Assembly (NCBI GenBank): GCA_964023275.1
Contig: OZ029913.1
Span: forward strand, 46,875,976 to 46,939,975
Reading direction: 5' to 3'
DNA length: 64,000 nucleotides
Source of the DNA: Norana najaformis
Lineage: Eukaryota; Annelida; Clitellata; Crassiclitellata; Hormogastridae
Shown: positions 8,580-26,449 of the stretch, one piece after another
Layout of the letters: every line of letters begins with the position of its first letter
Numbering within the stretch: the stretch's first letter is position 1
Position numbers and translations under genes: made by a program
The notes under the pieces: generated by a model
What the model saw: the letters and a program-made list of their open reading frames with translations, nothing else
Told to the model about the DNA's origin: nothing
Database searches by the model: none

Positions 8580-8915
8580 TGTCACGTTCCTCGCCTCATG
8601 TGTCGTCGTCGTCCATCACGTGCGTCCGTTGGTGCCCTCTGGTGATCACGGATGGTAGCTGGAGGTGCGCCATCGGCAGGAAAATTCGACACTCACCTGA
8701 CTGACGTGAGGGAGTACCAGAGAGCTGACTGATGAAATGCAAAACTCGATCGAGGGATTGTCACACTAGTTTATAAGGGGAGAAAATGACTTTAGTCAAA
8801 TAGATGCCAGACCGATACAGACCGAGAGAGGGACTGAGCCGTTCGTCAGTCGTTGTTAAGTCTCAGTTAACTAATAATAAAAGACTCTATTCCACTTCTA
8901 CTCGGCATCGTGACA
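8580..8915 (+). repeat. LTR A of the tandem array
   Basis: Starts TGTCACGTTCC, ends GCATCGTGACA, 336 bases. By eye it differs from LTR B at one site. The outer flank ATTAC is the left half of the target duplication. Confidence 0.9.
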
Positions 8916-10127
8916 TAATTGGCGTCGTGAACAGGATTCGTCGAATAGAAGTCGGTGCCGGAGACGGAAAACGACGAACCGCTGGAAGAAGGCGGTGGAA
9001 GAAGGCGAAGCCGTAAACGGAGACGTGGAAAACGACGAGGTGCTAGAAGAAGACAGTGGAAGAAGTCGGTGGACGGAGAATAGAACAACCAGTGAAGGAT
9101 GGGCGCTCGACCGAGAGACTTTTCGCTGCGACAGGAGTGATCGAGACAAAGTTGTGTCCGGTGCAACGAGTTTCGCTCGACTGGGTTTCGTCAGGGTAAC
9201 GCCCACTTGCCAGAGTTCGGTCTGCAGGGCGAGACGAAACGAAGTTTGGAACGAGAGGGTCTTCCGCTGGAGACGTCTACACGTGGCGAAGGTGCGGTCG
9301 AAGAAGTTCGTCTACGGGACGCTCGTTCTACAGAAAATGGTCGGAGTGAAGATGGTCGGCTCGAGATTCGTCCGGTGGCGGCAGTGTGTCCGCTGGTGAT
9401 TCGGTCGGCGACGTGCTCGTCGAAAGCCACGGAGTCAAAGGAGGAGCGAAGGAGGAGAACGGACAATGCGAACGTCGGTGACTTCAATCGGTTGATTGGC
9501 ACGTATGTGAGTACAGGTTTATCAGAGAGTGACTAAATGAGTTCTGCTCGACATTCTTGTGTTACGTATTGCAATAGACCAGAAACTTTTATCGTTTATT
9601 CATCTTCTGGCTAAGTTAGATTTGCATCATCGCACAGTTCAGTGATAAGAAACCAGGAAGGTAGGACATGTTAGGCAGTACCACCATTCGTTCTAGTTAA
9701 TCCGTCTGTACGAGCAGCTTTAAGATTTAGAATGAGGTCTAGATTCAACTGTAGGTATTGATAGATGAATATTTTATATACTCCGGTATATTTTATTGCA
9801 TTGAATTTAGTGTCAAAGTTATGTACCTATGTCTGGAGTTTTGACTGAGTAGGGTAATGGCTTTTATGTCGTGTTGACTTTTGTATCGATTGAGCTTATG
9901 GATTTGTATAGTCCGTTAGGATAGGTGCGGTCGGTAATAGAATGTGTAGGCAACATGATAAGTAGAATGTATAGACAAGGTTTTAATTAGAATGTATAGA
10001 TAATGTGTTATTTGTGTTACACGTTGTTCCTGAGCGTTATGGGTCGAGGGACTACGACGACGAAATGGTCGACAGAGGTGGATGTCCCGTCTGTAAACAG
10101 CCGGGAGCATCCTCTTGAAGGAGGAGG

Positions 10128-10463
10128 TGTCACGTTCCTCGCCTCACGTGTCGTCGTCGTCCATCACGTGCGTCCGTTGGTGCCCTCTGGTGATCACGGA
10201 TGGTAGCTGGAGGTGCGCCATCGGCAGGAAAATTCGACACTCACCTGACTGACGTGAGGGAGTACCAGAGAGCTGACTGATGAAATGCAAAACTCGATCG
10301 AGGGATTGTCACACTAGTTTATAAGGGGAGAAAATGACTTTAGTCAAATAGATGCCAGACCGATACAGACCGAGAGAGGGACTGAGCCGTTCGTCAGTCG
10401 TTGTTAAGTCTCAGTTAACTAATAATAAAAGACTCTATTCCACTTCTACTCGGCATCGTGACA
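10128..10463 (+). repeat. LTR B of the tandem array
   Basis: 336 bases, read as identical to LTR C. Preceded by the polypurine tract and followed by the primer-site-like TGGCGTCGTGAACAGG, so it serves as both a 3' and a 5' LTR. Confidence 0.9.
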
Positions 10464-11616
10464 TAATTGGCGTCGTGAACAGGATTCGTCGAATAGAAGT
10501 CGGTGCCGGAGACGTGGAAAACGACGAGGTGCTAGAAGAAGACAGTGGAAGAAGTCGGTGGACGGAGAATAGAACAACCAGTGAAGGATGGGCGCTCGAC
10601 CGAGAGACTTTTCGCTGCGACAGGAGTGATCGAGACAAAGTTGTGTCCGGTGCAACGAGTTTCGCTCGACTGGGTTTCGTCAGGGTAACGCCCACTTGCC
10701 AGAGTTCGGTCTGCAGGGCGAGACGAAACGAAGTTTGGAACGAGAGGGTCTTCCGCTGGAGACGTCTACACGTGGCGAAGGTGCGGTCGAAGAAGTTCGT
10801 CTACGGGACGCTCGTTCTACAGAAAATGGTCGGAGTGAAGATGGTCGGCTCGAGATTCGTCCGGTGGCGGCAGTGTGTCCGCTGGTGATTCGGTCGGCGA
10901 CGTGCTCGTCGAAAGCCACGGAGTCAAAGGAGGAGCGAAGGAGGAGAACGGACAATGCGAACGTCGGTGACTTCAATCGGTTGATTGGCACGTATGTGAG
11001 TACAGGTTTATCAGAGAGTGACTAAATGAGTTCTGCTCGACATTCTTGTGTTACGTATTGCAATAGACCAGAAACTTTTATCGTTTATTCATCTTCTGGC
11101 TAAGTTAGATTTGCATCATCGCACAGTTCAGTGATAAGAAACCAGGAAGGTAGGACATGTTAGGCAGTACCACCATTCGTTCTAGTTAATCCGTCTGTAC
11201 GAGCAGCTTTAAGATTTAGAATGAGGTCTAGATTCAACTGTAGGTATTGATAGATGAATATTTTATATACTCCGGTATATTTTATTGCATTGAATTTAGT
11301 GTCAAAGTTATGTACCTATGTCTGGAGTTTTGACTGAGTAGGGTAATGGCTTTTATGTCGTGTTGACTTTTGTATCGATTGAGCTTATGGATTTGTATAG
11401 TCCGTTAGGATAGGTGCGGTCGGTAATAGAATGTGTAGGCAACATGATAAGTAGAATGTATAGACAAGGTTTTAATTAGAATGTATAGATAATGTGTTAT
11501 TTGTGTTACACGTTGTTCCTGAGCGTTATGGGTCGAGGGACTACGACGACGAAATGGTCGACAGAGGTGGATGTCCCGTCTGTAAACAGCCGGGAGCATC
11601 CTCTTGAAGGAGGAGG

Positions 11617-11952
11617 TGTCACGTTCCTCGCCTCACGTGTCGTCGTCGTCCATCACGTGCGTCCGTTGGTGCCCTCTGGTGATCACGGATGGTAGCTGGA
11701 GGTGCGCCATCGGCAGGAAAATTCGACACTCACCTGACTGACGTGAGGGAGTACCAGAGAGCTGACTGATGAAATGCAAAACTCGATCGAGGGATTGTCA
11801 CACTAGTTTATAAGGGGAGAAAATGACTTTAGTCAAATAGATGCCAGACCGATACAGACCGAGAGAGGGACTGAGCCGTTCGTCAGTCGTTGTTAAGTCT
11901 CAGTTAACTAATAATAAAAGACTCTATTCCACTTCTACTCGGCATCGTGACA
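11617..11952 (+). repeat. LTR C of the tandem array
   Basis: 336 bases, read as identical to LTR B, at a period of 1489 bases from it. Near-identity of the B and C units suggests that this duplication is the most recent event in the array. Confidence 0.9.
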
Positions 11953-12945
11953 TAATTGGCGTCGTGAACAGGATTCGTCGAATAGAAGTCGGTGCCGGAG
12001 ACGTGGAAAACGACGAGGTGCTAGAAGAAGACAGTGGAAGAAGTCGGTGGACGGAGAATAGAACAACCAGTGAAGGATGGGCGCTCGACCGAGAGACTTT
12101 TCGCTGCGACAGGAGTGATCGAGACAAAGTTGTGTCCGGTGCAACGAGTTTCGCTCGACTGGGTTTCGTCAGGGTAACGCCCACTTGCCAGAGTTCGGTC
12201 TGCAGGGCGAGACGAAACGAAGTTTGGAACGAGAGGGTCTTCCGCTGGAGACGTCTACACGTGGCGAAGGTGCGGTCGAAGAAGTTCGTCTACGGGACGC
12301 TCGTTCTACAGAAAATGGTCGGAGTGAAGATGGTCGGCTCGAGATTCGTCCGGTGGCGGCAGTGTGTCCGCTGGTGATTCGGTCGGCGACGTGCTCGTCG
12401 AAAGCCACGGAGTCAAAGGAGGAGCGAAGGAGGAGAACGGACAATGCGAACGTCGGTGACTTCAATCGGTTGATTGGCACGTATGTGAGTACAGGTTTAT
12501 CAGAGAGTGACTAAATGAGTTCTGCTCGACATTCTTGTGTTACGTATTGCAATAGACCAGAAACTTTTATCGTTTATTCATCTTCTGGCTAAGTTAGATT
12601 TGCATCATCGCACAGTTCAGTGATAAGAAACCAGGAAGGTAGGACATGTTAGGCAGTACCACCATTCGTTCTAGTTAATCCGTCTGTACGAGCAGCTTTA
12701 AGATTTAGAATGAGGTCTAGATTCAACTGTAGGTATTGATAGATGAATATTTTATATACTCCGGTATATTTCATGATAAGTAGAATGTATAGACAAGGTT
12801 TTAATTAGAATGTATAGATAATGTGTTATTTGTGTTACACGTTGTTCCTGAGCGTTATGGGTCGAGGGACTACGACGACGAAATGGTCGACAGAGGTGGA
12901 TGTCCCGTCTGTAAACAGCCGGGAGCATCCTCTTGAAGGAGGAGG

Positions 12946-13290
12946 TGTCACGTTCCTCGCCTCACGTGTCGTCGTCGTCCATCACGTGCGTCCGTTGGTG
13001 CCCTCTGGTGATCACGGATGGTAGCTGGAGGTGCGCCATCGGCAGGAAAATTCGACACTCACCTGACTGACGTGAGGGAGTACCAGACAGCTGACTGATG
13101 AAATGCAAAACTCGATCGAGGGATTGTCACACTAGTTTATAAGGGGAGAAAATGACTTTAGTCAGATAGATGCCAGACCGATGTTAGGCCGATACAGACC
13201 GAGAGAGGGACTGAGACGTTCGTCAGTCGATGTTATGTCTCAGTTAAATAATAATAAAAGACTATTCGACTTCTACTCGGCATCGTGACA
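12946..13290 (+). repeat. LTR D of the tandem array (outermost, oldest state)
   Basis: 345 bases. It differs from A-C at several sites and keeps a short block (TTAGGCCGATACAGACC) that resembles the LTRs of the Gmr1-like element at 35.7-41.8 kb more closely than A-C do. It is followed by ATTAC, the right half of the target duplication. Confidence 0.9.
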
Positions 13291-13951: not shown

Positions 13952-14348
13952 TTCGATGAACATGTGTCTGTCAAGTGTCTTCTTCGATGGACCGTGACCG
14001 GTGGGGATCGGACGAACATCCTGCTCCTCCAACTCCCTCCTCTTCGTCGTCGCTGTCGTCTGCTTCGATGGCAGCTGCGTCGTGGGCTTCGCTGGTCCGA
14101 GCGTCGGAGTCTCCTCGACCTTGACTCGCCGGCTGACCTAGGTCAGGCGTTGCGGCTGCTTGATCTTGAGGACCGGTTGGGACACGTCGGCAGGGTCTCG
14201 TCGAACAGCTCCAGGCTCTCTCCGTTTCTTTAATCTTGGTTACAGGCACCGCCTTTCTCTCCTCCTTTAATTTCGGTTGTAGGTGCCTTCTCCATTTTAT
14301 TCTTGTCGATGAAGACCTTAATTTGCGACTGGATACGCTCGCTCGTTG

Positions 14349-14350
<2 letters not shown>
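13952..14350 (-). pseudogene. REL retrotransposon B: acidic C-terminal extension only
   Basis: A 5'-truncated copy. The minus-strand frame (13971-14351) has the Ser and Asp/Glu-rich extension that follows the endonuclease in one subfamily: EADDSDDEEEGVGGAGCSSD, ending PHRSRSIEEDT. The same acidic block with GCSSDPH occurs at 18.2, 19.3 and 49.4 kb. Its function is unknown. The copy is flanked on both sides by (ATT)n. Confidence 0.8.
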
Positions 14351-14385
<35 letters not shown>

Positions 14386-14391
14386 TACAGT
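14351..14391. repeat. (ATT)n microsatellite
   Basis: About 13 uninterrupted ATT units at the truncated 5' side of REL copy B. Confidence 0.9.
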
Positions 14392-14469
14392 TTGTCCCCT
14401 TCACCCAGCTGGCGTCAAGGTCTGTTTTATTGGGTTTCTACTAACTAAATCATATTCTTATTATTATTA

Positions 14470-14866
14470 TTTTCAACTGTCTGGGTTGGCTAAATCTCGC
14501 TGAAAGAAGATGCTGCAGAAGGCAACAGCATTAAATCGTTGGATGGCAACTGATAGGCGCTGAAACAGGTGGCATGTCTCTCTTTTATCACCAGAAACCA
14601 GCGTCAGAGAACTCCCAAACTCAGATATGAGTTATTAATTGGGCCAAGAGTTTCAAAAAATGACCGGAACCAAATGCTATTGTAGCAGAAGTTGGTTATA
14701 TTTTGAAGTTTTTCTAGATGCTGGTAGTACCGCTGCTCCACCGGCCGAGATAGAAGTAGCAGACAAGTAAGAAGCAGCCAGGGTGTCAGCCACACTGACA
14801 TCCCAAATCAGACTGCGGCCACCGCGCCATGGAATGAGCGTAAGCCCGTCGAGTCTTACCGTCAGT
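14470..14866 (-). pseudogene. REL retrotransposon C: endonuclease C-terminal fragment
   Basis: The minus-strand reading includes FFETLGPINN, the conserved FETLGPIN block found after the endonuclease in every copy here, and the surrounding residues resemble copies E and J. Frames are broken and the 5' side is cut off inside the endonuclease. AT-rich sequence adjoins both sides. Confidence 0.7.
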
Positions 14867-15234
14867 TTTAGATAGGCCTATTAATGGTAATAATAAAAAT
14901 AATATTTATTATAATAATAATATTATTGTTGTTATTATGCTGGTGTTTATTATAAATTATTATACTATAATGATGATATTATTGCTATTATTATTATCAT
15001 TGTTTATTTTTTTTTTTATTTTTTTAGCCGAGGTATTTATGATCCCTCAGGATTTCAGAAATTAGGGACTGCATTTTTCATTTTGTTAATATTGATATTT
15101 TTTACCCGAGGTAGGTATAATCCCTCAGGCGGTAAAAAATTAGTCCGGGACAGTAATTATTATTATTATTATTATTAATTTTACAAATTATTATTATTAT
15201 TATTATGAAGTCAATTCCGCTGTTATGTGACAGT
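14867..15234. repeat. AT-rich stretch with two copies of the REL 3' hairpin
   Basis: (ATT)n-rich sequence without coding signal. It contains two hairpin copies, 15028-15051 (CCGAGG to CCTCAGG) and 15105-15129 (CCCGAGG to CCTCAGG), each with the same loop pattern around TATAAT or TATGAT. They look like the last tens of bases of two severely 5'-truncated REL copies. Confidence 0.75.
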
Positions 15235-16545
15235 TTCATTAAAATAAATTAAATTAATAATCGCCATCTCCAGAGGGTTCAGAGCATGATGGCAATGTTC
15301 CGGAGAGGCAGATGGCATTTCCTCATTGAACAGCCACCGAAATCTTCTGAAACAAGAACGAGGTCTCTATAAGATCATGGGTTACATCTGTTGTCCGGCT
15401 TCCCAATTCTGTGATGAACTCCAGTCCTTCCTTGCTCCAGGCTCCGCTGGTCTCCAAGGCCACCACCACAAAGGTGTGAGGGCTAGTGATGGTGGCGTAC
15501 TTATCCTTTTGGACGAGGCTGCGCGGTCGGCAGCTTCACCTGCTCTGACCGATGTGTGAGGTAGCTGAGACGCTGCATAGGTGTCCAGTACTGTGACGTC
15601 CCATTCTAGGCACCGACCACGCGACCAAGGGATGAGCGTCACACCGTCCGGGCGTCTTCCGTCTTTCCTCGAGAGGCCAAGAGGTTCTTTCTGTGCAGCA
15701 ATTTTGGCTCTGTTCATCGCTCTCCAAATGACGTCGTTCAGCATACTGTGCCGCTGTTGTTTTCTGCCTCCTGCTCTGCAAAACAGGCCGTGTAGTCCAC
15801 TGACGTCGACTTTTCCCCCGTAGTAGTGGCATAAATGCGGTTCGCAAAGTGTTGTGCCCAGTCTCACCCCAATTGCCAACCGTACCTCCTCGTCTGAGAG
15901 ACGCAGTCTCAAAGCAGATACAGGGGGAGCCAGTAGCCAATCACCGGAATGTGGTGCTCATGAGGCAAGGAGGCGAGCGCGATCGTACGGACCGCTAACG
16001 GACCCAAACTGATCTCTGCAGGCCTTGTTTTGTCAACGAGTATCCCAATCTTTTTGGCGGTGTGATGCTACTCCCATTGGTGGCTCCCCACCTGTCAGGG
16101 CCATCCATGCGGTGAGTGCTGAGCTCACGAGTTTGTACGGCATCTCAGCCGAATCCGATGGCAGAATGCAAGCCTGAAGTTCGCTGGTGCTCGCAGCAGA
16201 ACCCAGAAAGGCGGATAATGCCAACGCAGATGCTTAGCGAATCCCCAGACCACCATCTCTCACCGGCAACAAAGCCTGTTGCCAATGGTCATCACAAAGG
16301 TCCACATTTAAAATATTTGACAGACCGTCTCTCAAGTGATCGAACCGAGTGAAGTTCGGGAACTCAGCACAAACGGTTATGCGCATAATGTATAACAGCT
16401 TTGGAACGCTTAAACTGTTCCGCAGCAGAACCAGAGCGTCATGTGCGTGAATCAGACACAGTCTTGTAATCGCTCTCTCAAGATCGTCAGCCTTCATTCC
16501 CTGTCGACAGCTGGACCTGGCATCAACGGCGCGCCCAGCAGAGTC
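15235..16545 (-). pseudogene. REL retrotransposon D: thumb region to endonuclease
   Basis: Minus-strand frames cover the end of the reverse transcriptase (VLLRNSLSVPKLLYIMRI, then LLPVRDGGLGIR) and the endonuclease. The zinc knuckle contains GLHGLFCRAG. The nuclease core has RRPDGVTLIPWSRGRCLEWD followed by VTVLDT, the P-D...D pattern of restriction-like endonucleases. It belongs to the same subfamily as copies K and N (shared IPWSRGRCL and AAQKEPLGL or PAQKEPLGL). Several frame changes make it inactive. It is truncated on the 5' side near the next (ATT)n. Confidence 0.85.
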
Positions 16546-16552
16546 ATCTCCT

Positions 16553-16600
16553 CATTATTATTATTATTATTTTCCCCGAGGTATATATAATCCCTCAGGG
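16553..16600. repeat. (ATT)n plus REL 3' hairpin (copy E)
   Basis: An ATT run is followed by CCCCGAGG and CCTCAGGG at 16574-16600. As minus-strand RNA the stem pairs fully with one U-G wobble. It marks the 3' end of copy E. Confidence 0.8.
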
Positions 16601-17405
16601 TTGTGAAATGTCCGGAGAAAATGATAAATCATCTGGAACGGCTACAACTCGTCAAGTTCGGGTATGGCAAGAAGGCTACGGAAGGCAACGGCATTGAAAC
16701 ACTGAATTGCTATAGTTTAATTGTTATAGTTTAATAATACAGTTTAATTGCTAGGCGCTGAAAGAAATAACAAGTTTCTTTTTGATCTCCGGAAGTTTTG
16801 AATAAGACAGCGTCCTAAGTCCGTAATAAGATCCAATCCAGTGCTGTTAATGGGGCCAAGAGTCTCAAATGCCAATGGTGTGAAGTGGTACATTGAAAGG
16901 AATTGACTGTACTTCGCACTTTTTCTGGAGGCTGTCAGCTCTGCGGCTGCCCCGGCGTTTGCAGCAGTTGCCTGCAAGTAAAAAGGAGCCACAGTGTCAA
17001 TTACTGTAACATCCCAGCTTAGACTGCGACCATTACGCCAAGGGATTAGGGTGAGACCATCAGGTCTCTTGCCGTCCGTTCTAGAAAGTCCGGTTGGTTC
17101 TTTGATAGCTGGAAAGCCCGCACGTATGAGGCTACGACAGATAAGGTCATTGAGGAAGGAATGTCGGGATATACGGCCAGGTCCAAGACCGCAAGAAAGT
17201 CCATGCGTACTTTCTGCCGTCACTAGTGTTCCGCAAGGACAGTCATGCGGCTCACATATGTTAGCTCCAAGACGAAGGCCGACGGCTATTCTTACTGCCT
17301 CGTCATCCAGTCGCAAGACGCAGGTTGTTACTGGAAGGGCAAAAAGCCAGTCGCCTGCGTGTGGTTCAGAAACTGCTTTCAAACGTGCTTGTTGGTAGGC
17401 GTCGG
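16601..17405 (-). pseudogene. REL retrotransposon E: endonuclease and 3' end
   Basis: A single minus-strand frame (16744-17382, 212 codons) spans the block GDWLFALPVTTCVLRLDDEA, the Cys/His knuckle (PCGTLVTAESTHGLSC), RKPD-like [19 protein letters not shown] with VTVIDT, and ends at FLSAPSN. The knuckle and P-D...D core define the R2-type endonuclease that nicks target DNA to prime reverse transcription. Relative to a full protein, the finger region and reverse transcriptase are missing because of 5' truncation at the (ATT)n near 17413. The endonuclease frame itself is intact. Confidence 0.88.
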
Positions 17406-17412
17406 TATATGA

Positions 17413-17540
17413 TTATTATTATTATTATCATTATTATTATTATAAATATTATTATTATTATTGTTGTTGTTGTTGTTATTATTATTATTATGAGATGGAT
17501 AATCTTCGTTGATGTTTATTATTATTATTATTATTATTAT

Positions 17541-17597
<57 letters not shown>
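17413..17597. repeat. compound (ATT)n, (GTT)n and (AGT)n microsatellite
   Basis: ATT runs with GTT and then about 19 AGT units. The high-coordinate end is the 3' tail (minus strand: CTA then TAA repeats) of the complexin-bearing segment. The low-coordinate end meets the truncated 5' side of REL copy E. Confidence 0.9.
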
Positions 17598-17599
<2 letters not shown>

Positions 17600-17615
17600 T
17601 TTGGCATCGTCCGAA

Positions 17616-18538
17616 TCACTTCTCCGTTGCCCCGGACACGGTTGTCATGACATTTCCCGGCAGCTCCTTCACCTTCGTCGTCAAGTCGTCAAAGTTCTTC
17701 GGAAACACCGACTGTTGTTCCGATGCTTCGTCTGGGTTTCCGTCACCCATATCATCCGGGGATTTCTTCTTCCGTCCTAGATGACCTTCGAGACCCGGAT
17801 CTTCCTTTGGAACCTCTTTCTTCTGGATGCCATACTTATCACGAATGCCCTGCCGCGTGACCTCTCGCTCCTCTTCCATCTTGCGGTATTTATCGTTGCG
17901 TTTTTCCTCCGCCTCTCGTATCGCTTCAGCGATTTCTGGATCCTCCTCCTCATCTCCATCGCCCTTCTTCTCCTCCTTCTCTTCTTTGTCTCCACCCAGG
18001 GCACCTGAAGGCTGGTGAATGCTGGGAGGTCGAATGTCATCTGAGAACATCGGAGGCTTTAACGCCTTTGGATTTATGTAACTATCGTCATCATCGCTTT
18101 CATCGTAGCCATCTTTTCCAGTGACAGGAAAAGAGCTAGCTTTTTTCATAACTGCGGGAAAGCGATCTGCATTTCTACCAGGAAGCACGTTCGCAACGTT
18201 AATGTAGTCTGGACAGTTTCGATGGTGTGGATCGGACGAACATCCAGCACCACCACCCTCCTCTTCATCGCCGTCGTCGTCTGCTTCGAAGGCGCCTGCA
18301 TCGTGGGCTTCACTGACGCGAGCGTCGACGTCTCCTCGACCTCGACCCGCCGGCTGTCCTTCGACAGGCGGTGTGGCTCCTTGACCCAGAGGATCGGTTG
18401 GGGCCCGTCGGCTGGGTCTCGACGACCAGTTCCAGGTTCTCTCCTTTTCTTTAGTCTTGGCTTCAGGCACGGTGATTGTTCTCTGGAATTGCCAGTCTTT
18501 GCTTAAATCTGGCTCCAAGAATGTGCCATTAAAGGCAA

Positions 18539-18542
<4 letters not shown>
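17616..18542 (-). CDS. chimeric frame: REL LINE C-terminal extension fused to complexin
   Basis: A continuous 308-codon frame. Residues 1-107 are the REL LINE tail: FNGTFLEPDLSKDWQFQ, a Pro and Arg-rich stretch, then the acidic block DDDGDEEEGGGAGCSSDPH. Residues 108-178 are unrecognised, rich in Asp and Ser. Residues 179-308 match complexin, the soluble protein that clamps and activates SNARE complexes at synapses: DPEIAEAIREAEEKRNDKYR, then the SNARE-binding helix KMEEEREVTRQGIRDKYGIQ at 221-240, then DLTTKVKELPGNVMTTVS near the end. The DNA junction is near 18215, right at the usual LINE 3' terminus (CATCGAAAC on the minus strand). No intron interrupts the complexin part and the stop is about 20 bases from a trinucleotide tail. 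Either a captured retrocopy or a host exon beside a LINE; the former is favoured but not proven. No initiation signal is visible because the 5' side is truncated. Confidence 0.8.
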
Positions 18543-18579
<37 letters not shown>

Positions 18580-18581
18580 TT
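18542..18581. repeat. (ATT)n microsatellite
   Basis: About 13 ATT units directly between the truncated 5' side of the complexin-bearing copy and the 3' hairpin of the next REL copy. Confidence 0.9.
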
Positions 18582-18789
18582 ACCAAGGTAAGTATAATCC
18601 CTTGGTTGTTCAAAAATTTCCGGAGAAAAAGAGAGAGAGGGACTCTGGAACGGCTAATCCTCGTCTGGATTCGGCACCACAAATGTACCGTGGAAGGCGA
18701 CTGCATTGAAACGCTGTAATGTTATAGATAAGCGTTGAAAAAGGTAACCTGTTTCTCTACTATCTCCGGATATGAGGGACAATATAAAA
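18582..18789 (-). pseudogene. REL retrotransposon G: 3' end only
   Basis: Begins with the 3' hairpin (ACCAAGG to CCTTGGT, 18582-18606). The minus-strand frame ends VAFHGTFVVPNPDED and is cut off after ISGDSRETGYLFQRLSITLQ. Over about 210 bases it differs from copy J (21045 onward) at only about two sites by eye, so the two are recent relatives. Confidence 0.85.
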
Positions 18790-19060
18790 TATAATAATAA
18801 TATTATTATTATTATTATCATCATCATCATCATCATCATCATTATTATTGCTATTGTGATCATTATTATAATAGGCGTCAGAAACGACTTCCAGGGTGTC
18901 GGACCATTTTCAATTATGAAACAAATCTATTGTTGCTGGAGCAAGTAGAGCTGCTGTGGCGTCCATTATTATTATTATTATGCAAATAACCATATCATTT
19001 GTGCAATAATTCTGAGCAGAAAGTTAGTTTGTTGTTATAATAATAATAATAACAATAAGA

Positions 19061-19093
<33 letters not shown>
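18790..19093. repeat. (ATT)n/(ATC)n tract with a minute REL fragment
   Basis: Mostly ATT, ATC and AAT repeats. At about 18948-18976 the sequence GCTGGAGCAAGTAGAGCTGC and the next bases match the extreme 3' end of copy I at 19094, with one visible difference, before meeting ATT repeats again. This looks like a roughly 30-base, extremely 5'-truncated insertion. Nothing else is recognisable between 18861 and 18947. Confidence 0.65.
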
Positions 19094-20977
19094 GCTGGAG
19101 CAACTAGAGCTGCTGTGGCGTCCTGGTTGGCACACTGGAAACAGGTCGACTAGCTGCACCTCCGAATCGCGTGATCTTGTCTTTAAGCGCCGTGGTGAAG
19201 AAGCAACCCTGAGTTAGCGGTCGCGTAAGTGTAGAGCGTTCTGTGGGCGTTTCTTCGATGGGGCGCAAGAACTTCCGGTGTGGATCGGACGAACATCCAG
19301 CACCACCAACTCCCTCCTCTTCATCGCCGTCGTCGTCTGCTTCGAAAGCGCCTGCGTCGTGGGCTTCGCTGACCCGAGCGTCGACGTCTCCTCGACCTCG
19401 ACCCGCCGGCTGACCTTCGACAGGCGGTGTGGCTCTTTGACCCAGAGGATCGGTTGGGGCCCGTCGGCTGGGTTTCGACGACCAGTTCCAGGTTCTCTCC
19501 TTTTCTTTAATCTTGGCTTCAGGCACGGTGATTGTTCTCTGGAATTGCCAGTCTTCGCTTAAATCTGGCTCCAAGAATGTGCCATTAAAGGCAATCGCGT
19601 TAGATCGCTGGATGGCAATGGAGAGGCGTTGGAACAGGAAAGAAGTCTCCCTCTTATCTCCCGATGCTTGAGTTAAATGGCGTCCGATTTTCTTGATGAG
19701 GCTGAAGCCTTCCTGATTTATGGGGCCTAGAGTCTCGAAGGCCAGAGGGACGAAGCAGTGTGTCGAGAGAATATCACTGTATTTTGAGGTCTTTCGTTCT
19801 GCTGCGATCTCAGCAGCAGCACCTGCGACCACGGCTGTTCTGGATCGATAAGAGACTGCCAGAGTATCGATTACTGTGGCGTCCCAGGTCAAGCATTTAC
19901 CCCCTTCCCAAGGAATGAGGGTTGCTCCATCAGGTCGTCGGCCGTCGGACCTAACCAATCCTGCTGGTTCTTTAGTTGATGGAAAGCCAGCCTTCACGAG
20001 GGCGCGCCACACGATGTCATTGATACAGGCGTGTCTTGCTGTTCTCCCTGGGCCTAAAGGGCATGCTAGACCGTGCGAGCCGTCCGCAGTGACCAGAAAC
20101 CCACAGGGGCAAACGTGAGGGGCGCACAAGTCTATCCCAAGTCTTAGGCCTGTTGTGATGCGTACAGCCTCATCGTTTAGCCTCAAGCCGCAGGCACTTA
20201 TGGGCAGCGCCAAAAGCCAGTCGCCAGAGTGTGGTGAAGAAACTGCCTTAAATCTGGCTTCGTGGTACTCGGATGTTATTGAGGCTCTGAGGGTTGCCAG
20301 ACTCTTTTGGATAAGTGGGCGGTCCCAAGTTGCCTGTTTATGGGATATTGGGGCCTCGGGATTGGGGGCATTTAATTCCGCTGACCAGCGGGTCCGGGCT
20401 TGTTCCAAAGGGCCATACGGGGGCAGGTCGCAAGAGGTAAGAATGGAATCCTGTAACGACGTGGTGCCTGCGGCTGAAGCCAAGAAGGCGGGAAGTGCCA
20501 GCGAGGACGCGCGACGTATACCAAGACCTCCGTCTCGGACAGGTAAAGATGCCTGATCCCAGCTCTGATCATTCAGAGCCAAGTTGAGCATGTTGGTGAG
20601 GCCTTTGCGAATGTGTCAAGAGCCGGGTTGTCCATGCATGGTGTGCAGCGGAGTGTGTGGAGCAGGGTGCAAGAGCTTAGTGAGTTGCGAAGAAGAATTA
20701 TGGCATCATGCCTAGATATGTAAGCCATACGGTCAATCCCTAGTGATAGTTGTGCGCATCGCTTCTCCAGTGCATCCCTTAGAGCTCCGCCCGTGGAAAG
20801 AGGTGCGCCCAAAAGACAAGCATTGTCAGAAGGTGTGACCGTGAAGCAGTCTAGAGGAGATGGCAGGTTGGTACATTGGATATGTGTTATCACTTCGCAC
20901 TTACTGACATTTAGTGTCAAACCCATTTCGCCCGCGACCCTGATAATAGATTCGACGTCTGCCGCCACTACGGATGC

Positions 20978-20980
<3 letters not shown>
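19094..20980 (-). pseudogene. REL retrotransposon I: reverse transcriptase end, endonuclease, acidic extension
   Basis: The longest REL frame here (19104-20591, 495 codons). Order: RT-thumb tail LPVRDGGLGIR (16-26), GDWLLALPISACGLRLNDEA (123-142), zinc knuckle with C161, C163, H173 and C177, KEPAGL (207-212), RPDGATLIPWEGGKCLTWD (219-237) with the P-D and second D of the restriction-like nuclease, FETLGPIN, then a Pro/Arg-rich and acidic extension with GCSSDPHR and a tail ending TPQQL. Only about 10 bases lie between the stop and the (AAT)n tail. A second frame (20573-20968) holds the preceding thumb segment (GMGLTLNVSKCEVITH-like context), separated by an indel. The copy is truncated before the YLDD region. 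The endonuclease looks intact. Confidence 0.9.
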
Positions 20981-21010
<30 letters not shown>

Positions 21011-21044
21011 TATTTATTTATTATTTTTTTTTATTTTTTTTTAT
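20981..21044. repeat. (ATT)n and T-rich tract
   Basis: ATT repeats passing into T-rich sequence, between the truncated 5' side of copy I and the hairpin of copy J. On the minus strand this is the A-rich plus TAA tail of copy J. Confidence 0.9.
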
Positions 21045-21843
21045 ACCAAGGTAAGTATAATCCCTTGGTTGTTCAAAAATTTCCGGAGAAAAAGAGAGAG
21101 AGGGACTCTGGAACGGCTAATCCTCGTCTGGATTCGGCACCACATATGTACCGTGGAAGGCGACTGCATTGAAACGCTGTAATGTTATAGATAAGCGTTG
21201 AAAAAGGTAACCTGTTTCTCTACCATCTCCGGATATGAGGGACAATATACGCCCCAAGTCTGTGATAAAGGTCATACCCAAACCATTGATAGGGCCTAAA
21301 GTCTCGAAGGCCAGAGGGACAAAGTGGTATGCATTAGTGAGATGATCATATTTCAAAGTTTTTCTATCGGCCGCCAGTTCAGCTGCGCCTCCTGCTGTAA
21401 CAGAGGTTGCCTGTAAGTAAGAATGTGCAAGCGTGTCAATCACGGTGACATCCCATAGAAGGCTGCGCCCCGAACGCCAAGGAATCAGGGTAAGGCTATC
21501 CGGTCTCTTGCCGTCTGTTCTAGAAAGACCCGTAGGTTCTTTCACTGATGGGAAGCCCGCTCGCGTCAGACTTCTGTGAATAAGGTCATTGAGACAAGCG
21601 TGACGTGCCATTCTGCCGGGTCCCAAACGGCAAGAGAGACCATGCGACCCCTCAGCAGTCACCAGAGCTCCACATGTGCAATTATGTGGTTGACATAGGA
21701 TAGCTCCGAGACGGAGACCTACGGCTATACGTACGGCTTCGTCATCCAGGCGAAGACCGATTGAGTTAATGGGGAGGGCAAATAGCCAATCCCCGGCATG
21801 AGGCGATGACACCGCCTTTAGACGTGCCTGGTGGTACGCGTCG
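21045..21843 (-). pseudogene. REL retrotransposon J: endonuclease and complete 3' end
   Basis: Starts at the 3' hairpin (21045-21069). One clean frame (21117-21812, 231 codons) runs from SSPHAGDWLFALPINSIGLR through the knuckle (CGALVTAEGSHGLSC), RPDSLTLIPWRSGRSLLWD, VTVIDT and FETLGPIN to the end PNPDED. Compared with copy I it has no acidic extension, so at least two C-terminal types exist in this family. Truncated 5' at GTTATTATT. The position equivalent to Gly in RPDG is Ser here; the P-D itself is kept. Confidence 0.9.
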
Positions 21844-21911
21844 TTATTATTGGTAATAAGTGTAGTTTTCGATATTTCGTACAGAGGTTTATCCCACTGG
21901 GATTGTTTCTG

Positions 21912-21952
<41 letters not shown>

Positions 21953-22020
21953 ACTCCCTAATTATTCAATAACTATAATTACTGTGGTTGACTGTACGCC
22001 TGTTCTGGTGTGGGGTAGGG
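21844..22020. other. short unassigned stretch with (ATT)n
   Basis: About 60 bases of unassigned sequence, a 40-base ATT run (21914-21951), then about 70 bases leading into the P-type element. Nothing else is visible. Confidence 0.6.
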
Positions 22021-22115
22021 GCAGGCTCTGAATGCCCACCACTGCCTGTCATCGCAACACCAATTGTGTGAGCAACAGCTGATCCAACAGTACCACCTGC
22101 GGCAGTTGCGGCCAT

Positions 22116-24511
22116 TTGCGCGAAGAAATTACTCTTCCTCAGGGCTTCACAATTAAACTCACTGACCAGACGCTGTACATCTACATGATTGAAGTTACGG
22201 ACGATGTGCCCAAAATTAAAGGCTCACTTACAGTGAAGACCGATCTGTCTGTAGTTCTTAGCATTGATGGAAAAACCATTCATGTGTCACAATTCAAAGA
22301 CCTGGTCAGTGGCTCACTCACGAAGATGTCACAACTCGTCAACTTGATGGCTCGCATCAAGTCTTTATGTTTAGAAACACAGACAAGATCCCTTGAACTG
22401 CTGGTTCACATGGCTGTAGAGTGTCTAAAAGCTGGTCTGGCGAACATAGATGACTCACACAGCCCAGAACATCGGAAGTTAAGTTTCATTGTAGAGCAGC
22501 TGCAGCTACTCATGAAGCATAAATTTTCTCGCCGGTATTCGCCTCAGCTGATAATTATGTGCTTCATGGTCTACGCTGCCAGCAAAGCAGCCTACACTGT
22601 TTTACTGGAGGAAACATTTTGGATATTCCTTCAATCAATACACTAAGAAAAGTTACCAGACGGGTGAATGTCAGTGAAGGATTGGACAACTCTTCATATT
22701 TGAAGCTACGTGTTTCCAAGCTAAATGAGTTTGAAAGAGTTGTTTTACTGATGATTGACGAGAGCTATATTGCAAAAAGAGTGGAATATAGCGGTGGAGA
22801 AGTGAAGGGACTGACACCAGATGGGGCAGTTGCATCAACGTTGTTATGCTTTATGGTTAAATCCCTGGTTTCCAAATTCAAGGATCTTGTTGGTATCTAT
22901 CCAATGGATAAATTAACAGCAGCAAAACAGTTCGAGTGCTATAATGAGGTGATGGCTCTTCTGCGCAGCGTTGGTCTCAATGTTATTGCCATCTCAGTGG
23001 ATAATACAGCTACAAACCGGAAGTTCTTTGTTGATTTCCTCTGCAATGGCCAGCTGCAGACAAACATCACCGATTCTGTCACTGGCCAGCCAATTTTCCT
23101 GATATTTGACCCAGTTCATGACTTGAAGAATGTTTACAATAATTTTCAGTCGAGAAAAACCTTCCAATGTCCACCAATGGGTTCCAACTTGCCTCTGGAA
23201 GAATGTACAGTGGAGTTCCAGCACATAGTAGATCTTTTTAACATGGAGGCCGTTATGTCTCTCAAAAAGGCACACCGATTGAGTCCAGCTGTACTCCAAC
23301 CCAAAAGCATTGAAAAAATTTCTGTGAAACTGGCTACTGCAGTCTTCAATGAGTCGACACATGATGCTCTGCAGTTCTACGCTGCCAACGAGAACAAGCC
23401 ACATTGGATGAGCACGGCAGCTTTCATTAAACTAATTATAAAGCTGTGGAATGTCATGAACGTAAAGTCTAGCACTAAAGGCAAACACAAGCGTGATTAC
23501 ACGATGGATCCAGTTCGGTCTTCAAGTGACTGGAAGCTGGTGTTTTTGCGAGAGTTTGCTGACTTCTTGTGGCGCTGGGAAACCAGCAAATCACGAGGAT
23601 TGACACATCAGACTTTCTTGGCGCTGCGACACACCTGCCTGGCTCTGGCTGATTGTGCAGCATACATGCTCGACCGACTGGCCTTCAATTACGTGTTGTT
23701 AGGCAATCTCCAGTCTGACGCCATTGAATCACGGTTTGGGTGGTTGCGACAACTTTCAGGCGCTAATTTCTATATTTCCATGAGGCAGGTGCTCGAAAGT
23801 GACCGCAAGATAAGAGCTTTGTCTCTGCTTAAGTTTTCGTCATTCTCTTTGTCTGAAATAGACAACAACATTCAGACAGACGTGCAGCATTTATTGTCGG
23901 TTGAGAACAGTTATGCGGACCAGATAGTGGAAGAACTGACATTCAGGCATGCACCAACTTTCAGTGATGCCAACATCATCTTCTATGTAAGCGGATATAT
24001 TGCGAGGTCAGTGTTTAGATCCAACCGATGTGAACACTGCAAGGAGAGTCTGGTCAACTCTGACCCGCTGGAACCGCTCACATTGAGTGAAACACTGGAC
24101 AATACCGCCACACTATTCCTGGACAGCATTAATCGCGGCGGTCTGTCAAAGCCGACAGATTTGGCATTCATGATGACCATCCACTGCTGGAGAGTCTGGG
24201 AAGAAGTAAGGTCAACACCACACTTTATGCAGCTATTCCTGACCAGCTCCTGTCAACGATCACTGTTCTGTAAAGTGATGGACCGCGCCTCTTACGCTGA
24301 CAACTTCGCTGATCAATTCAGTGGTGAGGATGTGTGTACCAGTGGTCACGATATGATGTCACTGACTGCGAGACGCTTCTTTAACTGTGTCGCTAAGAAC
24401 TTAGCAAAGGAGTTCACCAATAAAGCCAATCAACAGTCAGGACAATCTGGAAAATCATCAGCGAAAAAGCGCAAAATTGCCAAACTCTCCAGTACTTCAT
24501 CACACCAGTGA
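22116..24511 (+). pseudogene. P-element/THAP9-like transposase, nearly complete
   Basis: Two overlapping frames (22116-22646 and 22559-24511) form one transposase interrupted by a single-base frameshift near 22600. The first has the leader and coiled region ending KHKFSRRYSPQLIIMCFMVY. The second (650 codons) has the RNase H-like core: MIDESYIAKRVEYSGGEVKG with Asp 67, ISVDNTATNRKFF with Asp 148, FDPVHDLKNVYNNF (183-196), and LQSDAIESRFGWLRQLSG with Glu 390 after a long insertion domain. A CEHC motif and a basic Lys-rich tail follow. This matches P transposases and human THAP9. No N-terminal THAP zinc finger is seen; TTCCTCAG followed by GGCTTC near 22145 could be an acceptor for an exon that carried it. 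P transposases excise and reinsert DNA with 8-base target duplications. Confidence 0.9.
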
Positions 24512-24879
24512 ACTTTTGACTGAGAAAATGCTGCATAATTAGTGAAACCGATATGTACTATTTCTTTGTTGATCTATTTTTAAAAAAATATTTCCATTAA
24601 CAGTCTTTTGCTCACACTGCACAGCAGCATTTTCAGTTATAGTTACATGAGATGACACATAAAATAACAAAACTAGGGTTTTAAATGGTTCATAAAACAT
24701 GTAATCTGTGTTACAAGCATTGCAAAGTTACTGGAAATGCCTAATAGTCAATCTTTCCGGGCTTCTTAAATGCTGTGCCAGTGTCAACTTTGCATATACT
24801 TGCTGTGTAAAGTAGACCAACTGATGTATACGATAAACGACAGCTGTATGTCCTGCTGTGCTATTGTAGAGGAGTCCAT
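24512..24879. other. 3' flank of the P-type transposase
   Basis: AT-rich, non-coding sequence, probably the 3' untranslated part and right end of the P-type transposon. I could not find a matching inverted terminus or target duplication. It stops at about 24880 where REL copy K begins abruptly. Confidence 0.5.
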
Positions 24880-25806
24880 GGTTTGGGCTATAGTGGCGTA
24901 TTTTAACCTTTTGGCTGAGACTGCCCGGTTTGCAGCTTCACTTAGTCCGGTTGAAGTCAATCCTAGATGTGACGCTGCAAGTGTGTCAGAAACTGTCACA
25001 TCCCATGTGAGACACCTTCCGCGAGACCATGGGATAAGAGTAACGCCATCCGGTCGTTTGCGATCTTCCCTGGTGAGTCCTAACGGTTCTTTCTGAGCAG
25101 GGATGTTCGCTCTGGCAAGCGCTCTCCATATAATGTCGTTGAGCATGTTATGGCGTTGTTGTCTGCCAGCACTCTTTCTGCAGACCAGACCGTGAAGTCC
25201 TCTGGCGTCGACTCTTTCGCCACAGTGACACAGATGTGGCTCGCACAGTGTGGTTCCCAGTCGCATTCCAACCACCTCATCCGAAAGACAAAGTCCCAAT
25301 GCGGTTACTGGAGGAGCCAGCATCCAATCTCCAGAGTGTGGTGCTTGAGAGGCCAAGAGACGAGCACGGTCTAGTGGGTTGTTCGCAGACTCATCATGTA
25401 AGCTCGCCGACGCCTTGCTTGTCCAGCGACTGTCCCATTCCCTTTGTCGATGAGCTGCTGATCCAGTTGGTGGTTCTGCACCCGTGAAGACCATCCATGC
25501 ATTCAGTGCGGTATTCACTAGCTCGTCTGAGGTATCGGTTGATTCTGGTGGCAGTATGTGTGTTTGGAGTTCGCTTGTGCTTGCAGCAGAGGCCAAGAAG
25601 ACAGAAAGTACCAGCGTAGAAGCACAGCGAATCCCAAGACCCCCATCCCTAACCGGAAGGGAAGCCTGAAGCCATTTCTCATCCGACAGCTCAACATTTA
25701 AGATAGTCGATAATCCATCTCTTAAAAGAGAGTCAAATCTGGTTAGACTGAGGCATTCGGTGCAAACGGCTGTGCGCATTGTGTAGAGCAGCTTCGGAAC
25801 GCCCAT
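24880..25806 (-). pseudogene. REL retrotransposon K: thumb region to endonuclease
   Basis: One minus-strand frame (24784-25806, 340 codons) covers VPKLLYTMRTAVCTECLSLT, LPVRDGGLGIRCASTLVLSV, GDWMLAPPVTALGLCLSDEV, the knuckle (CHCGERVDARGLHGLVC), RPDGVTLIPWSRGRCLTWD and VTVSDT. The last 30 codons run out of the element into flanking sequence. Over its first 54 bases (from GTTTGGGCTATAG) it is identical by eye to the copy at the right edge of the window. The 3' end is cut at the P-type element, and the 5' end is truncated next to a short ATT run. Confidence 0.88.
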
Positions 25807-25814
25807 ATATTTCT

Positions 25815-25867
25815 TACTATTATTATTATGTTTTTTTTTGTACCGGAGGTAGGTATAATCCCTCAGG
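25815..25867. repeat. (ATT)n, T tract and REL 3' hairpin (copy L)
   Basis: A short ATT run and nine to ten Ts precede CCGGAGG and CCTCAGG (25843-25867), the 3' hairpin with one mismatch. It marks the 3' end of the near full-length copy L. Confidence 0.8.
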
Positions 25868-26449
25868 TGGTGAAAAAAATTAGTCTGGAGACATATTGAG
25901 CATCTGTAACGGCTACGTCTTATCCGGCTCTGGCAGAGAGAAGGTACCTCGAAAGGCGACGGTGTTGAAATGTAGAATTGTGATTGAGAGCCGTTGAAAA
26001 AGATAGCTAGATTTTCTCGCTTCTCCGGAAAAACGAGACAGACAACGTCCCAAATCAGAGATGAAGGATAAGCTGGTGCTATTTATGGGGCCAAGGGTTC
26101 CAAAGGCCAAGGGAATAAAATGATGTGAATCGAGAGTGGATTATATTTCAAGTTCTTTCTGAGTTTCTGGCAGCTGCCATCTTCGCCGCTGCGCCAGCTG
26201 TTACTGCAGTTGCTGGTAGATAGAAGGCGGCTAGGGTGTCAATAACCGTGGCGTCCCATATCAGGCTACGTCCAGCGCGCCAAGGGATCAGTGTGAGGCC
26301 GTCGGGTTTCTTGTCATCAGTTCCAGACGGCCGATGGTTCCTTGATGACTGGGAAACCGGCCTTAGAAAGGCAGCGGCATATGGGGTCGTTGAGGACACC
26401 GTGCCGGGCAATTCGACCGGGGCCCAGGGCGCAAGAGAGCCCGTGAGAG
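25868..26449 (-). pseudogene. REL retrotransposon L, part 1: endonuclease and C-terminus
   Basis: Minus-strand pieces contain TLGPINSTSLSFISDLGRCL, ending LPEPDKT, and upstream [20 protein letters not shown] with ATVIDT, the P-D...D nuclease core. The frame breaks near the knuckle, where the hAT element is inserted. The bases CGTGAGAG at 26442-26449 are the left half of the hAT target duplication. The element continues at 32200. Confidence 0.85.

Follow-up and report, generated by a model that had tools for sequence, protein, structure and literature searches.

To our knowledge, the shuffling of exons by LINEs has been argued mostly from cell assays or single cases. Among the closest described systems are two SVA subfamilies of apes, in which a non-autonomous element took up a first exon on its 5' side: SVA_F1 with MAST2 exon 1 and the chimpanzee pt_SVA_D6 with STK40 exon 1 are described with 84 and 94 copies, and some of their members bear exons of further genes (PMC6139936). 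In 3' transduction by LINE and SVA elements, read-through past the element's end takes downstream sequence to new sites (PMC9311842), and end-to-end template jumping of the R2 type could likewise join LINE and host RNA (PMC4117753). LINEs of the R4/Dong type, which have a restriction-like endonuclease, insert into (TAA)n, and host exon capture goes unmentioned in the parts of that source that concern us (PMC7998251).

The new data from a 64,000-nucleotide stretch of Norana najaformis DNA (the window) describe a minus-strand open frame that is a 5'-truncated member of a LINE subfamily, one among at least 30 complexin-bearing copies. As in SVA_F1/MAST2 and pt_SVA_D6/STK40, the subfamily would have been made by splicing host sequence to an element and would then have been amplified (PMC6139936). 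Unlike those cases, the carrier is a LINE, the host sequence lies on the 3' side, and terminal exons of two genes follow one another in series and in frame with the LINE protein. Whereas 3' transduction carries flanking DNA (PMC9311842), this element carries spliced host exons and its own 3' end is gone. The copy flanks show the (TAA)n target of R4/Dong elements, a likeness in insertion site and not a placement by a clade tree. In the literature searched, mostly outside subscription journals, there was no report of a LINE with a trapped complexin or with serial host exons at its 3' side.

The window copy

An earlier note, made from the sequence alone, had described one open frame of 308 codons joining a LINE C-terminus to complexin. 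This frame is present, uninterrupted at 18653-17616 on the minus strand, with 308 codons and a stop within 18542-17616. Read along the minus strand, the copy consists of LINE sequence, exons a and b of a second host gene (gene X), complexin exons 2, 3 and 4 with the start of an alternative exon 5, and a (CTA)n(TAA)n tail. Its parts and a native copy for comparison are as follows.

18541..18579, no strand: (ATT)n/(AAT)n microsatellite, the left target flank where the 5'-truncated copy begins (Tandem Repeats Finder, period 3, 13 copies, 100%)
18224..18542, minus: LINE A part, C-terminal acidic extension to ...GCSSDPH (GATCCACACC); 96% identity to the LINE copy at 19277-19596
18113..18223, minus: gene X exon a; source C2:7847228-7847338, between ttcttag/ and /gtctgt; 96% over 110/111 nt, exact exon limits
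18005..18112, minus: gene X exon b; source on C2, tctgtag/ATGCC to CTTCAG/gtagga; 96% over 108 nt, exact exon limits
17835..18004, minus: complexin exon 2; source on C8, ctgcag/GTGCCC..GATAAG/gtcaga; 99% over 170 nt
17714..17834, minus: complexin exon 3; source on C8, ttgcag/TATGGC..CACAAC/gtatgt; 97% over 121 nt
17618..17713, minus: complexin exon 4, up to the internal donor GAGAAGT/gtagtc that removes the CSLQ end; 100% over 96 nt
17597..17617, minus: start of complexin alternative exon 5; source C8:33033335, ttatag/GATTCGG; 21/21 nt
17541..17599, no strand: (CTA)n tail, then (TAA)n; tandem repeat, 100%; same tail in copies L002 and L010
19092..20615, minus: LINE A copy free of host exons and with the native 3' end nat1, the comparison element; 503-aa frame 20615-19107, then (AAT)n

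The host exon joins have neither lost nor gained a base, and the stop TGA (17618-17616) straddles the join of complexin exons 4 and 5. Several further readings of the layout proved accurate: the complexin part has no introns, which the source gene does have; about 18-19 bases (the note had said about 20) lie between the stop and (CTA)n(TAA)n; and the LINE side is 5'-truncated, the copy starting inside (AAT)n with a close LINE copy at 20615-19107. The roughly 70 residues between LINE and complexin, offered as a possible alternative complexin N-terminus, are instead two spliced exons of gene X. At the protein level, two changes arose within copies, M>T (common to L010) and R>H. The differences K>I, E>D and L>F are not damage, since the complexin gene on contig C8 carries all three. 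Rfam had no match on the window.

Elsewhere in the window, a tandem unit of 1489 bp is present in about 3 copies at 8580-13071 (98-100% identity between the 300-nt pieces compared; edge spacing 1329-1548). A minus-strand chain of LINE pieces occupies 13980-26448, several of them starting or ending in (AAT)n in the stretches read, a pattern that would arise if newer LINEs had used the microsatellite tails of older ones as insertion sites. A plus-strand frame of 662 aa at 22523-24511, with TNP-like RNase H and GTP-binding insertion domains, is presumably a P-element-like transposase.

The complexin part and its source gene

That the C-terminal segment of the frame is complexin, as first proposed, is clear from its match to Pfam Synaphin (E 7.8e-28, profile positions 17-141 of 142); complexins in the PDB also match (best E 9.6e-12), and the central SNARE-binding helix is present. 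A search with the 201-aa protein gave a Synaphin domain in 120/120 matches listed (best 120 of 129), and among the matches listed from the protein collection the closest complexins include P0001 (93% over 65% of the query), with leech identities of 80% for Hirudo and 66-68% for Helobdella. Five proteins in the database, by their appearance read-throughs of genomic sequence (P0040, P0045, P0046, P0049, P0099), have the same starting glycine, and their matching ends with a valine after IRDK/IREK, as expected at an intron; the window copy continues uninterrupted through this point. The window segment lacks the exon 1 segment and the annelid-type CxLQ C-terminal box, ending GATEK-stop, and is a complexin fragment inside a LINE frame, not a complexin gene. 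Nor does it look like a processed pseudogene, since there is no exon 1 and no poly(A), and the LINE is joined on the 5' side.

The complexin gene on C8 has the exons ctgcag/GTGCCC...GATAAG/gtcaga, ttgcag/TATGGC...CACAAC/gtatgt and cgccag/AGTCGG..., the third of which reads on to CSLQ and a stop; exon 1 was not found by regular expression within 18 kb. This is the separate, intron-containing gene with near-identical exons that the earlier note had proposed to look for, its exons being 97-100% identical to the window copy. The note had also considered that the window might hold the only complexin locus, and thus a genuine set of host complexin exons adjoining a LINE. The open frame and the window by itself are compatible with such an arrangement, to which we give next to no credence in view of the gene with the CSLQ end on C8 and of further complexin-like exon matches on C5. 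The C5 matches, both exon 2-like (C5:24509858-24510035 and C5:26343706-26343835; 74-78% identity), are possible complexin paralogues.

Downstream on C8, position 33033335 reads ttatag/GATTCGGACGATGCC, an alternative exon 5. Joining the internal donor GAGAAGT/gtagtc to it yields GAGAAGTGATTCGG, the same as in the LINE copies, and the stop arises at the join. Loss of the CSLQ end by mutational decay was rejected, since the joining of exon 4 to exon 5 itself makes the TGA. Because the LINE copies carry this join, we infer that Norana najaformis has a complexin isoform with exon 4 spliced to exon 5 and without CSLQ. In Drosophila, alternative 3' splicing likewise gives complexins with and without a CAAX end (Cpx7A/Cpx7B), there through an alternative exon 7, whereas the predicted non-CAAX end of the captured isoform comes from the stop at the exon 4/5 join (PMC10312600).

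Gene X and the order of capture

Database searches gave no match for gene X. On contig C2 its exons read ttcttag/GTCGAAACTG...GGAAAAG/gtctgt (a), tctgtag/ATGCC...CTTCAG/gtagga (b) and tatag/GTCATTAACTT... (c). A neighbour copy of exons b and c lies about 12 kb downstream (C2:7859658-7860637, 76-90% identical), and by this resemblance gene X may belong to a small tandem family. Both source genes, X and complexin, thus persist elsewhere with introns, with AG/.../GT sites at the same points.

Four copies in the genome carry X with its own last exon c and no complexin, and 2/4 are still joined to the LINE: L021 and L022 read LINE/a/b/c, and L026 and the X-only copy in L048 are 5'-truncated inside X. 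All four run into AAT repeats after exon c, at differing points of that exon. At the six positions where the family base differs from the C2 gene, the X-only copies, compared with the complexin copies, have the family base at 6, 6, 5 and 3 readable positions. X was presumably captured first, since the X-only copies have every readable X difference in common with the complexin copies, and on these comparisons the simplest order would be LINE, then LINE.X, then LINE.X.complexin. Relative to the source genes, 6/219 positions have changed in X and 2/387 in the complexin coding part; an excess in X is expected if X came first, although complexin is probably also the more constrained gene.

Copies across the genome

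The genome searched was the window's own assembly (608 Mb, 17 contigs; one assembly). A 676-nt query (18235-17560, minus strand) gave 44 matches, with 40 of 49 candidates scored: 30 complexin copies including the window's, 4 X-only copies, 3 complexin exons on C8, 3 X-type exons on C2, 2 complexin-like matches on C5 and 2 short repeats. An exon 5 query gave 41 matches, namely the C8 gene, 26 at counted copies and 14 others with only an exon 5 piece (two of these adjoining), so that 30 complexin copies is a lower bound.

Copies that reach the respective parts read LINE/a/b/2/3/4/5 with abutting ends, and the exceptions are damage to single copies: L009 and L015 lack some exon 2 bases, L011 lacks the first 22, and small indels occur elsewhere. 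Among the 30 complexin copies the 5' ends form a graded series, with 10 reaching the start of the query and the others starting at positions 63 to 574 of 676, and the 5' junctions lie in AAT- or ATT-rich DNA in 19/21 cases (the window copy included) and in (AAG)n in 2/21. Exon 5 spans 82-131 nt in most other tabulated copies and 21 nt in the window copy. At the 3' end, the main form is ...GCATGTATCTATT(ATA)n. Other copies are shorter, continue beyond CTCCACATA for up to 43 bases (the Y2 form) or, like L002, L010 and the window copy, end in (CTA)n; Y2 may be a later 3' transduction.

Common joins, graded 5' truncation and AAT-type tails are the hallmarks of retrotransposition in offspring copies, and the window copy arose by later ordinary retrotransposition. 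The earlier note had read it as a complexin mRNA captured once, at this locus, at the LINE 3' terminus. An intron-less, in-frame complexin beside a LINE piece would suit a capture of this kind, but the same joins recur in at least 30 copies around the genome and the LINE is not joined at its terminus, which leaves the reading practically no probability. Capture of host complexin RNA by a LINE thus stands, and the place given for it, this locus and the LINE terminus, does not; two host genes and two steps are involved.

The LINE family and its 3' ends

The DNA had been thought to change exactly at the LINE's normal 3' end, but native LINE A continues past GATCCACACC. What had been taken for the terminus, CATCGAAAC, is in the window copy the start of host exon Xa (GTCGAAAC) with a G>A change, also found in L004, and L007 reads GTCTAAAC. 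Eight copies (L002, L003, L005, L006, L008, L009, L011 and L021, with L022 left out) read CACC/GTCGAAAC at that point, and CATCGAAAC was accordingly set aside as a coincidental resemblance to a LINE 3' terminus. The CGTCCGATCCACACCNNNNGTTCTTGCG pattern has 281 genome matches, and among the first 100, CACC is followed by GG in 98 and AG in 2, so that a GT donor after CACC is absent from these native copies. The exact pattern CACCGTRNG has one match genome-wide (C16:2794527, GTAGG), in a nat2-type copy.

Native LINE A has two 3' ends, nat1 and nat2, which diverge within about 10 bases after GGAGGT (window 19092-19180; L016, L035, L050); by BLAST, they have a 20-column match at their common start (90%, two gaps). 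Otherwise BLAST found no similarity among the ends nat1, nat2, Xc, exon 5, Y2 and one near window position 14000, bar 8-nt matches with exon 5. The LINE could thus still move after its own end had been replaced by X exon c, by complexin exon 5, or by exon 5 and Y2 together. In a quick tree built from LINE tails (17 rows, including 3 duplicates) the X and complexin copies stand apart from the native ones, with uneven support of 0.2-0.98; the complexin copy L011 wrongly bears an X-only label in this tree.

As for the element's own proteins, the truncated copy L044 has a YLDD motif, with an RVT_1 match at E 0.097, below the curated cut-off. Pfam gave no match for a LINE endonuclease; a RPDG...WDATV motif, picked by eye, may mark a PD..(D/E)xK endonuclease. 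The LINE C-terminus searched against the protein collection gave 620 candidates and 0 at E <= 0.01, and a search of viral contigs gave nothing relevant. A further form of LINE A has about 350 extra bases near LINE position 1090-1102 that are not in the window copy, located as follows.

L016, 2201-2554: LINE A extra segment of about 350 bases
L046, 6815-7164 (turned): the same segment
L034 and L035 joined, 16113-16465: the same segment

Splicing as the likely route of capture

It is very likely that a (TAA)n-targeting LINE successively gained two host 3' exon sets by the splicing of read-through transcripts and then spread. In the first step, a LINE A copy would have lain in sense within an intron of gene X, upstream of exon a; in a read-through transcript, a splice site after ...GATCCACACC would have been joined to exon a, with b and c following, and retrotransposition would have given LINE.X. 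In the second step, a LINE.X copy in sense within complexin intron 1 would have given a transcript spliced from the end of exon b (CTTCAG/GT) to complexin exon 2 and then to 3, 4 and the alternative exon 5, with LINE.X.complexin as the product. LINE.X.complexin was then amplified to at least 30 copies, the window's included, with LINE-typical 5' truncation and AAT-type tails.

The first base of each captured block coincides with a 3' splice site, as would result from splicing out of a LINE in a host intron followed by retrotransposition; the exon a start and the joins a/b, b/complexin 2 and 2/3/4/5 all fall on splice sites of the source genes. Arrays of (TAA)n, the type of site that this LINE targets, occur on the gene-sense strand some 450 bp upstream of exon a and, in the complexin gene, 580-960 bp upstream of exon 2. 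Against this route, no LINE A was present upstream of either exon in the stretches of the one assembly compared (C2 from 7838001, C8 from 33022001), and the founding intronic insertions are therefore not seen. The GT donor that the route predicts after CACC is likewise missing from the native copies (first 100 of 281), and the single genome-wide match to a GT pattern belongs to the nat2 type. As to the donors, one G>T change in CACCGGAAGT would, we propose, give a strong donor by the splice-site consensus; the X-to-complexin donor, CAG/GTCATT within LINE.X, would presumably be weak by the same measure.

Alternatively, during target-primed reverse transcription the LINE enzyme could have switched template between LINE RNA and a mature mRNA of X or complexin, with the fusion amplified afterwards. 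The captured RNA is indeed entirely spliced, native LINEs have no GT donor at the junction (first 100 of 281), and R2-type reverse transcriptase has been described to jump templates in vitro, aided by microhomology (PMC4117753). Both blocks, however, begin at exon starts that are internal in the mature mRNAs, with the upstream exons missing; R2-type template jumping is not expected to respect exon starts, and a jump into a mature mRNA need not hit one twice. Template switching is therefore an unlikely account, and the exact exon starts favour splicing.

Whether this LINE family habitually trades its 3' end for trapped host exons, and so goes on shuffling exons, is a more tentative matter, and we lean somewhat against it. 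The idea draws on the mobility of copies that end in X exon c, in exon 5, or in Y2 after exon 5, and on the two ends of the native family, nat1 and nat2. If true, a (UAA)n-like RNA end would be all that the enzyme needs to recognise, with no set structure in the 3' untranslated region, and any LINE-spliced transcript with such an end could be carried.

Coding capacity of the fusion

The LINE frame is open through X and complexin in the window copy and several others, and a 714-aa frame of L039 spans all three; frames were listed for two (L039, L044) of the nine LINE copies fetched at length. Changes were counted as differences from the column majority at 24 loci, with the best match per locus and L021, L022, L025, L026, L028 and L030 left out. 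Of 101 changes within copies, 28 are silent, 68 replacing and 5 stops, against an expectation of 27%, 70% and 3% (transitions weighted 4:1), and single copies look as if they decay neutrally. The fixed differences from the source genes are replacing in 5 of 6 cases in X (by two translations) and in 1 of 2 in the complexin coding part; 4 further fixed differences fall towards the 3' limit of the exon 5 part, at the passage of the copies into their repeats.

Given this apparently neutral pattern of change, we regard the fused protein as most likely a passenger, with the host sequence now acting as the element's 3' end. A LINE.X.complexin protein might instead be made and its X and complexin segments used by the element, for example in placing its complex at membranes or vesicles. 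Both fusions are in frame, as would happen in one of nine cases by chance if they were independent, and the long frame of L039 covers all three parts. The changes within copies nevertheless fit neutrality, although that test covers dead copies and not the active lineage, and replacing changes predominate among those fixed in X and make up half of those fixed in complexin. Such a use of the protein thus seems improbable, and we retain the passenger reading.

Implications

Taken together, a single genome holds the series of native LINE, LINE with X, and LINE with X and complexin, along with both source genes. The series shows that a LINE has acquired spliced host exons one set after another, each in frame, and illustrates that mobile DNA can shuffle gene parts. 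Moreover, the mobility that the element kept after its 3' end was replaced by host sequence bears on how LINE enzymes choose their RNA.
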